Shown here piece by piece: positions 22,765-27,211 of a stretch of DNA of 64,000 bases. Origin of the DNA: Geomonas agri (GTDB taxonomy: Bacteria > Desulfobacterota > Desulfuromonadia > Geobacterales > Geobacteraceae); assembly GCF_020179605.1 (NCBI RefSeq), contig NZ_JAINZO010000001.1, positions 1,896,799 through 1,960,798 of the forward strand, written 5' to 3'. The position numbers and the translations under genes were made by a program. How positions within the stretch are numbered: the stretch's first letter is position 1; every line of letters starts with the position of its first letter. The notes under the pieces were generated by a model that searched no databases, was not told where the DNA came from, and saw nothing but the letters and a program-made list of their open reading frames with translations.

Positions 22765-22821
22765 ATCTGGACGATAAGAAGCCTGCCGATCAACACACAT
22801 GTGTGCGAGGAGGATACGGAG

Positions 22822-23238
22822 ATGGAACAGCGACGCTTTCACCGGGTCACATACAGTGCCCCCGGAGAATTAGTTCATCATGGCATCAAATATCGTTGCC
22901 GCCTGGAAAACGTCAGCCTGCGCGGCGCCCTGATCAGCGCCGACGAGTGCCTCATGGTACCTCTCCACGAGTCATGTAAACTCACCGTCCCCGTGGAACC
23001 GGGGAAAGAGCCCCTGACCATCACGGTCTGCGTGGTGCACTGCTTCTTCTCGATGGTTGGGGTGAAGTTCATCGGCTTCGCTGGAGACACCGAACTGAGA
23101 CTGCTCGAACTGCTAAAGCGGGAAACTTCCGAACCGGACAGGCTCGCAGAGGAGTGGCAGAGCCTGGAAAAGAAGAGTGCAGTAAGCGAGGGAGAAGGGA
23201 CAACCTGCATCCCTGAACCGGCCGTGGCGATCTTTTGA
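22822..23238 (+). CDS. PilZ domain protein
   Basis: Likely cyclic-di-nucleotide effector. The two binding motifs are present: QRRFHR at residues 3-8 (the RxxxR element) and NVSLRGALIS near residue 35 (the D/NxSxxG element). 138 residues, one domain plus a polar C-terminal tail. Start taken at ATG 22822, where GAGGAGG lies eight nt upstream; a GTG at 22801 is less likely. First gene of the accessory block beside two riboswitches, so a role in second-messenger response is a fair inference. Ligand unknown. Confidence 0.85.
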   Translation: MEQRRFHRVTYSAPGELVHHGIKYRCRLENVSLRGALISADECLMVPLHESCKLTVPVEPGKEPLTITVCVVHCFFSMVGVKFIGFAGDTELRLLELLKRETSEPDRLAEEWQSLEKKSAVSEGEGTTCIPEPAVAIF

Positions 23239-23777: not shown

Positions 23778-23806
23778 CTTGACAGGGTTCATGCCTTGAG
23801 CTATCG
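23778..23806 (+). promoter_or_regulatory. promoter of riboswitch 1 transcript
   Basis: TTGACA (23778-23783), 17 nt, TATCGT (23801-23806). It puts the transcript start near 23813, just ahead of the aptamer. Confidence 0.7.
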
Positions 23807-23837
23807 TTCCCACAACTTTTCCGACTCCACATACGAT

Positions 23838-23946
23838 AGACGATAATACTAAACCATCCGCGAGGATGGGACGGAAAGCCTACAGGGTCTCACCGAGACA
23901 GCCGGGTCGCCGAAATATCAAAGAGATATTCGGTCCCGGCTTTTTT
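23838..23946 (+). promoter_or_regulatory. GEMM-Ib (3',3'-cGAMP type) riboswitch 1 with terminator
   Basis: The core matches GEMM-I: TAAACC, a CCATCC-GCGA-GGATGG hairpin with a GNRA loop, then GGGACGGAAAGCC. Aligned to the V. cholerae Vc2 aptamer without gaps, position 20 is A (23848), not the G of c-di-GMP riboswitches, and positions 21 and 46 are C and G (23849, 23874), a swap of the Vc2 G-C pair that supports the alignment. G20A is the known mark of GEMM-Ib RNAs, which in Geobacter sense 3',3'-cGAMP. A long stem (CCGAAATATC with GATATTCGG) and T6 at 23941-23946 form the expression platform. It controls 24032-25268. Confidence 0.9.
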
Positions 23947-24335: not shown

Positions 24336-25268
24336 ATGCGAAACACGACTATTGCCTTTAGATCCGTCATCATCGCCATCGGCGCCATCATCGCTACAAT
24401 GGTTTACCTGGGAGGATGCGGCGGCGGTGGCGGCGGCGCCAGCACCGGAACCCTGAAACTCGCCATCACCGATAAGCCAAGTGATGCCTACCAGAACCTG
24501 GTCATCTCCATCAAGGAGATCAGGGTCGTGCCCGCCGGTCACGAAAATGCGGCAGACAACGACCCGGCCCTCCCGGTCCTGGCCACCTTCAACCCGCAGG
24601 AAAAGGTCATTGATATCATGACCCTGCAATTCATCCAGCAGGCGTTGGGCGAGATCGTGCTGCCGGCAGGAACCTACAACCAGATTCGCCTGGTCCTTTA
24701 CCCGAATCCGAACGAAAACCAGGCTCCGGTCAACTACCTCACCCTGAAGAGCGACCCGAACACGAAGATCCCACTGACCACTCCGAGCGGTCAAACCTCC
24801 GGGCTCAAGATCCTCGGCCCGCTCGAGGTCAAACCTGGAGTTATCAATGCCGTCATGATCGACTTCGACCCGAACACTGCAGTGGTTAAGCGCGGCAACA
24901 GCAACGAATACAACTTGAAGCCCACCGGCATCAGGATGATCCAGATGGCCAACATGCTGAGCCAATTCGGCTCCATCGTGGGCAACGTCAGCAACGCCTT
25001 GCAGAACTGGAGCAGCGCCACGGTCTCCATCAAGCGTCGCGGCACCATCAACGACGCCACGCCCATCGCCTCTGGCCAGATCTTCGCTGCCTATACCAGC
25101 GGCAAATGGCAAGCCCCCTTCTCCGCCTTCGTGCCGGCCAGCGAATCGGGCTGGGGCTACAAGACCTTCATAAACTCCAACGGCTTCGCTCTCTACTCCT
25201 CACCCACCGTGCCGGTGGTGCAGAGTCAGCCCAGCGATCTGGGACAAATCGTACTCGCTCCGCAATAG
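24336..25268 (+). CDS. DUF4382 lipoprotein
   Basis: 310 residues. N-terminal hydrophobic segment ending in the lipobox LGGC, followed by a Gly linker, so it is likely anchored by a lipidated cysteine. The mature part begins TGTLKLAITDKPSDAYQNLV, the start of the DUF4382 fold, an immunoglobulin-like domain of unknown role. ATG at 24336 has AAGGAGG upstream. It follows the His-rich gene by 31 nt, so both depend on riboswitch 1. Envelope location is inferred from the lipobox. Confidence 0.85.
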   Translation: MRNTTIAFRSVIIAIGAIIATMVYLGGCGGGGGGASTGTLKLAITDKPSDAYQNLVISIKEIRVVPAGHENAADNDPALPVLATFNPQEKVIDIMTLQFIQQALGEIVLPAGTYNQIRLVLYPNPNENQAPVNYLTLKSDPNTKIPLTTPSGQTSGLKILGPLEVKPGVINAVMIDFDPNTAVVKRGNSNEYNLKPTGIRMIQMANMLSQFGSIVGNVSNALQNWSSATVSIKRRGTINDATPIASGQIFAAYTSGKWQAPFSAFVPASESGWGYKTFINSNGFALYSSPTVPVVQSQPSDLGQIVLAPQ

Positions 25269-25282
25269 CGGAGGTCGTCATA

Positions 25283-25314
25283 ACCCGGTCTTCCCCGCAT
25301 GGGGGAGACCGGGT
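25283..25314 (+). terminator. strong hairpin after the lipoprotein gene
   Basis: ACCCGGTC..GACCGGGT stem of about 13 bp around a GCAT loop. No T-run follows, so stopping may be partial and hemerythrin could be read through. Confidence 0.5.
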
Positions 25315-25744: not shown

Positions 25745-25754
25745 GAACAATATA

Positions 25755-25859
25755 GCGACAATACTCAACCATCCGCGAGGATGGGGCGGAAAGCCTAAGG
25801 GTCTCACCGAGACAGCCGGGTTGCCGAACTATCACCAGATACTCGGCCCCGGCTTTTTT
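25755..25859 (+). promoter_or_regulatory. GEMM-Ib (3',3'-cGAMP type) riboswitch 2 with terminator
   Basis: Same architecture as riboswitch 1: TCAACC, the CCATCC-GCGA-GGATGG hairpin, GGGGCGGAAAGCC, then a GCCGGG..CCCCGGC stem and T6 at 25854-25859. Position 20 is again A (25763), with C21 (25764) and G46 (25789). It starts 11 nt after the hemerythrin stop, and no clear promoter was seen, so it may be reached by read-through. It controls the SYLF gene at 26036. Confidence 0.9.
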
Positions 25860-26035: not shown

Positions 26036-26701
26036 ATGAAAATGATGAAACTTCTCGCAACAGCAGTAGCCGCAGTCATGATGACAATTACAGTCACCCC
26101 CGCCTATGCCGGGAAGGAATCGAGGAAGATTGAGGACTGCATCGAGGTGGTCAAGGCGATCAAGGCCATCCCCGAGGAAGGTATCCCCCCGATGTTGTTG
26201 AAGAACGCGCAAGGCATCATGATCATCCCCGAAGTGCTGAAGGTCGGTTTCGTGGTCGGCGGCAGGTACGGCACCGGTATCTTGACCGTGCGCGACGAAA
26301 AGGGGAACTGGACCGATCCGGTATTCGTCAAGATCGCCGGCGGCAGCCTGGGTTGGCAGATAGGCGCCGAGTCGACCGACCTTGTCCTGGTGTTCAAAAC
26401 CAGGAAGAGTGTGGATGGTGTTCTCAGGGGCAAGTTCACTCTGGGTGCTGACGCCTCTGTTGCCGCTGGCCCGGTTGGACGAAGCGCCGAGGGTGCGACC
26501 GACGTCACTCTGAAGAGCGAGATACTCTCCTATTCGCGCAGTCGTGGTCTCTTCGCCGGGATTGCCCTCAACGGCGCCGCGCTCATGATCGACGATGATG
26601 CCAACGGTGCCTACTACGGCAACCTCGACCCGAGGACGATCGCCGCCGGAGAAGCCGGCAAGCGCACACCGGAAGTAAAGCAACTGCTCGACCTGCTGTA
26701 A
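26036..26701 (+). CDS. exported SYLF-domain (Ysc84-like) protein
   Basis: 221 residues. Signal peptide MKMMKLLATAVAAVMMTITV with AYA before GKESRK. The rest is the SYLF/Ysc84 fold (LLKNAQGIMIIPEVLKVGFV, GRYGTGILTVRD, KIAGGSLGWQIGAESTDLVL), known for lipid binding in eukaryotes and found as exported proteins in many bacteria. ATG at 26036 with AAGGAGG 11 nt upstream; ATGs at 26042 and 26045 are also possible. Regulated by riboswitch 2. A periplasmic lipid-related role is inferred. Confidence 0.85.
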   Translation: MKMMKLLATAVAAVMMTITVTPAYAGKESRKIEDCIEVVKAIKAIPEEGIPPMLLKNAQGIMIIPEVLKVGFVVGGRYGTGILTVRDEKGNWTDPVFVKIAGGSLGWQIGAESTDLVLVFKTRKSVDGVLRGKFTLGADASVAAGPVGRSAEGATDVTLKSEILSYSRSRGLFAGIALNGAALMIDDDANGAYYGNLDPRTIAAGEAGKRTPEVKQLLDLL

Positions 26702-26745: not shown

Positions 26746-26883
26746 TATACTTGTCTCAACGTCCCCTCGCTTCCCTCCATTTTGATACATCTCCCCTACC
26801 TTTCATTCGCCACCGCCATTTACACAAAATTGTTTACAGGCCCGCCAGTGCTTCCGCCGCGCGATTGAAGCAGGTTCCGCAGA

Positions 26884-27211
26884 AAAACATTTCTGCGAGC
26901 AAGTGAAGCGTTCCGTTGCGCAGAGAAGGCTTTCGACGGGCGACGGAAGTGTTCCGTCGAGCGGAGAAAGCTTTCCGCGAGCGACGAAAGCGTTCCGTTG
27001 AACAGAGAAAGCTTTCCACGAGCGACGGAAGCGTTCCGTTGAGCAGAGAAAGCTTTCCGCGAGCGACGGAAGCGATCCGTTGAGCAGAGAAAGCTTTCCG
27101 CGAGCGACGGAAGCGTTCCGTTGAGCAGAGAAAGCTTTCCGCGAGCGACGGAAGCGTTCCGTTTGACAGAGGAAGCTTTCCGCAGGTGACGGAAGCGCTC
27201 CGTCTCGCAGA
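26884..27211. repeat. 41-bp tandem repeat array, about eight units
   Basis: Units of exactly 41 bp; GAGCGAC recurs at 27061, 27102 and 27143. The inner copies are nearly identical and the outer ones diverged. Each unit carries two palindromes, ACGGAA-GCG-TTCCGT and GAAAGCTTTC. 41 is not a multiple of three and minus-strand frames stay open in more than one phase, so it is not read as a protein. There is no unique sequence between units, so it is not CRISPR. It fills most of the gap 26746-27362. Confidence 0.9.

Follow-up and report, generated by a model that had tools for sequence, protein, structure and literature searches.

Within the window, that is, the whole 64,000-nt stretch of the Geomonas agri genome analyzed here, a GEMM-I RNA (switch 1) precedes genes for a His-rich secreted protein and a DUF4382 lipoprotein, which raises the question of whether this RNA senses 3',3'-cGAMP or c-di-GMP and how far along the gene row its control extends. 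The coordinates of the features are given in Table 1. The initial annotation had aligned the aptamer without gaps to the Vc2 c-di-GMP aptamer between positions 18 and 52, had read an A at position 20 and a C-G pair at positions 21 and 46, and had suggested a search with RF01051 (c-di-GMP-I/GEMM-I) as a check. That search, run with cmscan, returned switch 1 at 43.8 bits, where the gathering score is 35 (E 2.9e-5, calculated for 4227 families and 64 kb), with model positions 1-87 complete, i.e. a full-length GEMM-I aptamer, and all three readings are borne out by its alignment, which is gap-free over model positions 1-44 and has its earliest insertion after position 44, outside the 18-52 region. 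Model positions 11, 12, 37 and 38 are occupied by A, C, G and A; with a model-to-Vc2 numbering offset that we take to be 9, model position 11 corresponds to Vc2 position 20.

Table 1. Features of the switch 1 region and of the genes behind it (window coordinates).
Feature	Coordinates	Strand	Details
Sigma-70-like promoter TTGACA-17-TATCGT	23779..23807	+	10/12 consensus bases
P1 helix, 5' strand GATA	23835..23838	+	pairs with 23916-23919 TATC
GEMM-I aptamer, switch 1	23838..23914	+	A20 = 23848, C21 = 23849, G46 = 23874, A47 = 23875; RF01051 alignment
Predicted intrinsic terminator	23901..23946	+	stem 23901-23940, then U tract 23941-23946; 5' arm made of the 3' parts of aptamer and P1; folding
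His/Lys-rich secreted protein, 90 aa	24032..24304	+	signal peptide by eye
DUF4382 lipoprotein, 310 aa	24336..25268	+	PF14321, 3.4e-33
G+C-rich intercistronic hairpin without U tract	25283..25314	+	between DUF4382 and hemerythrin
Bacteriohemerythrin, 133 aa	25343..25744	+	open reading frame and family search
GEMM-I aptamer, switch 2	25753..25828	+	RF01051, 44.5 bits, full model; A20-C21-U22
Switch 2 terminator with U tract	25815..25859	+	folding (L017), -22.6 kcal/mol
SYLF/Ysc84-domain exported protein	26036..26701	+	3' of switch 2; start codon by eye

Switch 1 carries A20, which marks the GEMM-Ib group, in place of the G20 of Vc2-type c-di-GMP-I RNAs, and also the A47 beside the 21-46 pair, which plays a role in GEMM-Ib. 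This group was reportedly founded by papers of Kellenberger and of Nelson in 2015. The Rfam scans contained no separate GEMM-Ib family, and RF01051 is the best clan match of both window switches, unlike RF03167 (c-di-GMP-I-GGC) and RF03168 (c-di-GMP-I-UAU), which belong to the same Rfam clan and both occur in the same genome. By sequence, switch 1 looks like a typical representative of an established family of cGAMP sensor RNAs.

The 4.68-Mb genome encodes 20 GEMM-I RNAs (11 to 27 per genome in 19 genomes of the genus), of which 11 have A20 and nine have G20. At the foot of P3, an A opposite G is present in all 11 A20 RNAs and a C-G pair in all nine G20 RNAs. The proposed cGAMP-type signature had combined A20 with the C21-G46 pair, and its two parts fared differently: A20 is a published discriminator, while C21-G46 was rejected as a cGAMP mark, being found together with G20 in three of the nine G20 RNAs (L007, L008 and L012); six of the nine have G21-C46. 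According to PMC6456294, the Gmet_0970 switch, which shares A20 with switch 1, is cGAMP-selective and its A20G variant is c-di-GMP-selective. This swap backs the initial statement that A20 RNAs are cGAMP receptors in Geobacter, although the host here is a Geomonas and not a Geobacter in the narrow sense. In G. sulfurreducens, 13 GEMM-Ib switches were named and 12 of 17 GEMM-I riboswitches were said to bind cGAMP (PMC8835794). Across 48 Geobacteraceae genomes, the exact C21-U22 scaffold was counted in 430 A20 copies (summed by hand; a reversed-pattern control gave 0) and eight G20 copies, the patterns being exact, so that diverged copies went uncounted and one of the 11 A20 RNAs of the genome itself, L006, was missed. 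As far as sequences go, A20 thus stays coupled to its own scaffold, the count being no measure of the ligand.

Switch 1 might instead respond mainly to c-di-GMP, or to both ligands alike, and thus read the total cyclic-dinucleotide state. The omcST switch has been reported to be sensitive to both ligands (PMC6456294), and the Desulfobacca acetoxidans cluster 3 aptamer, which likewise has an A for G at a ligand-contact position and is paired with a cobalamin switch, is only partly shifted in selectivity, since its A variant gained affinity for c-AMP-GMP, perhaps slightly lost affinity for c-di-GMP and retained most of the latter (PMC9481103); because of these two cases, A20 alone does not guarantee selectivity. 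Many GGDEF domains of the genome also keep the ordinary Asp (25 of 30 by script, and L041 by eye). However, A20 is constant in the 33 switches of the 29 relatives' loci described below, the C21-U22 scaffold carries it in 430 of 438 exact copies, and the genome maintains a separate G20 class, mostly with G21-C46, which makes a c-di-GMP or dual response unlikely. A20 shifts ligand preference, and selectivity of switch 1 for cGAMP is what we infer from it.

Upstream of switch 1, the promoter-like site is weak when taken alone, since 2.5 kb contained three such sites and shuffled versions averaged 1.4; by eye, the orthologous switches of L081-L086, L098 and L100 are preceded by the same TTGACA-17-TATCGT, and that of L109 by a weaker form. 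The paired architecture is well preserved among 62 A20-type sequences, in which P1 is paired in 87.8% of cells, with A-U, G-U and G-C at one pair, and P1 to P3 together in 96.0%, compared with at most 49.2% for slid versions. P1 to P3 contain 24 double-changed cells versus 8.1 in shuffles, an excess that kinship can also produce without structure.

The terminator proposed at the end of the aptamer is supported by folding, though a simple terminator scan did not list it. It is part of the -43.8 kcal/mol minimum of 23814-23946, and the hairpin alone reaches -23.0. Its stem consumes GCCGGG of P3 and CCGAAATATC (aptamer end and P1) and is followed by six T; aptamer and terminator are therefore mutually exclusive, and this predicted overlap reproduces the GEMM-Ib ON-switch layout, in which the terminator shares the 3' strand of the aptamer. 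The pilM cGAMP switch of G. metallireducens is likewise a terminator-based ON switch (PMC9262584). Covariation in the terminator helix did not exceed that of shuffles in the MAFFT alignment, whose upper part is poorly aligned, and therefore each sequence was tested by folding: a terminator using the aptamer GCCGGG passed a strict automatic test in 53 of the 62 sequences. Seven of the nine failures concern the tail pattern, six of which by eye retain the stem but have a broken T tract (CTGTT...), while L091 is degenerate; as for the remaining two, the terminator of L010 pairs only four of the six bases and that of L087:3277 is weak (-11.9). Minimum-energy folds of the growing RNA gave the complete aptamer at no printed length, as can be expected without ligand terms, and lend no support.

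We consider it highly probable that switch 1 acts as a transcriptional ON riboswitch of the GEMM-Ib (cGAMP) type, in the following way. Transcription would start about 25 nt before the aptamer, from the sigma-70-like promoter. When 3',3'-cGAMP is scarce, the 3' part of the aptamer (GCCGGG to CCGAAATATC) would pair with the downstream strand and form the terminator, while cGAMP bound in the A20 pocket would hold P1 and P3 together and thereby prevent it. The predicted read-through would then cover the His-rich and DUF4382 genes and probably reach the hemerythrin gene, after which the second A20 switch at 25753 would gate the SYLF gene.

A DUF4382 homologue search over 58 genomes, including the genome itself, found 42 matches in 35 genomes, and 30 loci, including that of the window, were fetched. 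An RF01051 match on the same strand lies 82 to 446 nt before the matched part in 26 of the 29 relatives' loci, each of the 26 with A20-C21-U22, and A20 is invariant over 33 switches (these 26 and seven counterparts of switch 2). Neither RF01051 nor a model built from the genome's own RNAs found a switch in L071, L080 and L077; the L077 contig is short and carries no more than the later portion of the gene. In the named collection, A20-C21-U22 occurs 57 to 438 nt upstream in 34 of 47 loci. In 13 of the 47, the 500 nt preceding the DUF4382 match contain no A20 switch: L122 has a G20 RNA 710 nt upstream and 12 have none, among which L112 and L115 start at a contig edge and L124-L127 are just 32-37% identical. 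A G20 RNA lies downstream of DUF4382 in L096. The 29-locus and 47-locus sets overlap, so their counts were not added. None of the 47 named DUF4382 loci, which were collected with a peptide-pattern finder, belongs to G. sulfurreducens or G. metallireducens; this is no proof of absence. With about 20 switches in 4.7 Mb, the chance of one falling within 450 nt upstream of a given gene on the same strand is estimated at about 1/1000, an estimate to be read with the non-independence of related genomes in mind.

The claim that the His-rich and DUF4382 proteins are targets is thus strengthened by this joint conservation of switch and DUF4382 gene, with ligand selectivity as the predicted part. Since an A20 switch precedes the gene in most related loci, the DUF4382 lipoprotein is a conserved predicted cGAMP target, and, with the switch kept across genera and families, it is a good candidate for a core role of the cGAMP pathway in the envelope. 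That switch 1 is merely a decayed aptamer acting as a constitutive terminator, as could be imagined from L085 and L086, which retain only a terminator half resembling switch 2, is very improbable: it scores above the gathering threshold, positions 20, 21-46 and 47 are intact, and it is kept at the same place in 26 of the 29 relatives' loci. An A20 switch with a 53% identical DUF4382 gene was also seen in L101, a contig filed as Nitrospirae bacterium GWC2_56_14, which reflects either gene transfer or a misplaced contig.

The row of switch 1, a small His/Lys-rich protein, DUF4382 and hemerythrin is present in the window and in 14 of 16 same-genus loci (L052-L065; the full row is missing in L073 and L074). 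The His-rich gene was recovered by script in 11 of these 14, and L053, L054 and L056 (genomes G005, G003 and G014) also have it in place. In the other fetched loci the switch precedes DUF4382 without a His-rich gene, which indicates that DUF4382 is the constant target and that the His-rich protein was added in part of the genus. Neither Pfam nor NCBIfam has a match for the His-rich family. Its homologues at 12 non-syntenic loci (that of L151 at E 9e-4 only) have an A20-C21-U22 switch upstream in five cases, immediately in front of the gene in L145, L149 and L154 and ahead of a preceding gene, of beta-barrel type by eye, in L143 and L147; judged from sequence, this is a second link between the His-rich family and A20 switches. 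The DUF4382 protein shares 90-91% identity with its counterparts in Geomonas azotofigens, G. paludis and G. anaerohicana, and its lipobox cysteine C28 is invariant in 18 aligned sequences, including that of the window. A weaker promoter-like site (9/12) at 24373-24400, just inside the DUF4382 gene, could bypass switch 1 for the hemerythrin gene. The controlled unit probably includes the hemerythrin gene and, past the second switch, the SYLF gene. A G+C-rich hairpin of changing sequence occupies the DUF4382-hemerythrin gap in all 14 genus loci examined (L052-L065), and the one in the window, a stable hairpin, is possibly an mRNA stability element.

Switch 2, which starts 9 nt past the hemerythrin stop codon, is present in L052-L058, while L059-L065 gave no match with RF01051 or with the model from the genome's own RNAs. 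The hemerythrin gene of L085 and L086 (Geomonas edaphica and G. oryzae) is followed by a terminator half like that of switch 2 without an aptamer, which looks like decay of switch 2. Between 24401 and 26100, the promoter scan listed nothing promoter-like on the + strand, and a looser scan found no good promoter shared inside eight hemerythrin genes (best 7 to 8/12). Switch 2 could nevertheless be an independent SYLF leader with its own promoter in the hemerythrin gene, so that switch 1 would control the earlier genes only. L106 and L108 (Geomonas limicola and G. silvestris) have an A20 switch and a SYLF-like gene with no preceding hemerythrin gene listed, and an unrecognized promoter could exist; yet the two promoter scans, the closeness of the aptamer to the stop codon and the hairpin before hemerythrin, which has no U tract, speak against it, and we regard this independent leader as possible but doubtful. 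The likelier reading is that switch 2 is a second gate on the same transcript. In L106 (477-555) and L108 (417-495), the A20 switch lies about 3 kb upstream of DUF4382 and directly before the SYLF-like gene, which was assigned by sequence likeness.

A broader proposal, a serial two-gate cGAMP device on one mRNA with G20 second gates elsewhere, perhaps in three lineages, is quite possible, though we put it forward only tentatively. If true, one transcript would have to pass switch 1 for the His-rich, DUF4382 and hemerythrin genes and then switch 2 for SYLF, with two thresholds for one signal, and A20-then-G20 pairs would be natural cGAMP-then-c-di-GMP AND gates. The tandem GEMM-Ib leader of omcAHG (PMC6456294) similarly places two cGAMP-type switches on one gene row, whereas the window switches are three genes apart and switch 2 lies between cistrons. 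Beyond the row, window positions 26879-27203 contain a tandem array of a 41-base unit (7.9 copies, 87% matches) inside - strand open frames.

Among 32 GGDEF matches in the genome, the NDxxGHxxG(D) position could be read in 30; the substrate site is Ser in L040, Thr in L045, and Asp in 25 by script and in L041 by eye, while the motif is absent from L047 and from L050, the latter being a fragment. Thr at the substrate site also allows cGAMP synthesis. L040 (459 aa, Response_reg and GGDEF) reads NDNFGHLIGS, i.e. GHLIGS at the substrate site, and so has the Ser for Asp that distinguishes Hypr/GacA cyclases. The best solved relative of its GGDEF part is 6d9m (E 2.1e-67), which also has Ser there and whose title fits the T4-lysozyme fusion with Gmet_1914 residues 294-459 described in PMC6456294. 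By these sequence marks, the genome encodes a GacA-like Hypr GGDEF cyclase. Of the 48 family genomes, 46, including this one, have a match to the 6d9m domain at E <= 1e-60, the Ser having been checked in this genome only. The closest GGDEF domain among the 48 is 94% identical, and therefore the G. metallireducens genome lies outside the set.

A PilZ-domain protein is encoded at 22801-23238, just upstream of the switch region. Elsewhere in the genome, an A20 switch (L010/L155, C1:2416598-2416673, - strand) precedes a PAS-GGDEF-EAL gene, and in seven of nine fetched regions, this one included, a GGDEF-motif frame comes after an A20 switch; cGAMP may control a c-di-GMP enzyme.

Switch 1 shares with the Geobacter GEMM-Ib switches (pgcA/Gs1761, Gm0970 and pilM) the GEMM-I fold, many copies per genome and a GacA-type Hypr cyclase, as well as the terminator-based ON layout of pilM (PMC9262584), a likeness drawn from descriptions of the named switches, with the ligand of switch 1 predicted. 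Their targets are cytochromes or pili, whereas those in the window are a DUF4382 lipoprotein, a His-rich protein and a hemerythrin. In Geobacter, cGAMP signaling has been tied to growth on metal oxides, and the named targets comprise outer-surface cytochromes, pilus genes, lipoprotein transpeptidases and hypothetical genes (PMC6456294). The G. bemidjiensis genome is said to share riboswitches known from G. sulfurreducens and G. metallireducens, and it has GEMM-regulated genes of fibronectin type (PMC2996986). In the searched literature, DUF4382 turns up in a single paper, which by title and abstract deals with archaeal glycoproteins, and never with Geobacter; hemerythrin together with riboswitch, Geobacter and cGAMP appears, among the matches listed, just as a word in the G. 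bemidjiensis genome paper. Neither the aptamer core letters nor a report of the operon was found in the searched literature, whose scope excludes the 2015 founding papers of GEMM-Ib; the supplements of those papers may include some of the present sites. The kind of riboswitch is known, and what is added here is a conserved envelope-protein target and the serial arrangement.

The DUF4382 protein was also modeled from the 18-sequence alignment (pLDDT 80.6, pTM 0.69). No sequence relative of known structure was found (best E 0.13), and a whole-fold assignment was rejected, with Foldseek TM-scores of at most 0.26 among the 12 matches at E <= 0.001. Residues 211-310 align with beta domains of transthyretin-like and CnaB-like type (best Z 9.5, rmsd 2.4 over 79 residues), with many unrelated entries scoring close behind, so the model supports a C-terminal beta-sandwich domain and nothing more specific.

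Finally, several other arrangements of GEMM-I RNAs were observed. Among the eight G20 copies of the A20 scaffold in the 48 genomes, five (L164, L165, L166, L167 and L170) stand second in a tandem behind an A20 RNA, each with its own terminator by eye, two (L168 and L169) are single and L171 is cut at the contig start; these A20/G20 tandems are possible cGAMP-then-c-di-GMP gates. L164-L166 precede the same kind of lipoprotein gene and probably represent one event. One and the same tandem, located in front of a CxxCH-containing gene, occurs as A20/A20 in three genomes (L173, L174 and L175) and as A20/G20 in one (L172), the 32-base core of the second member differing at position 20 only, for which a sequencing error in that one genome is possible. 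As well, the genome of Geomonas agri itself carries, at C2:173586-174657 (- strand), an A20 switch (L015), then a hemerythrin-like gene (by eye) and after it two consecutive G20 switches (L005 and L004).
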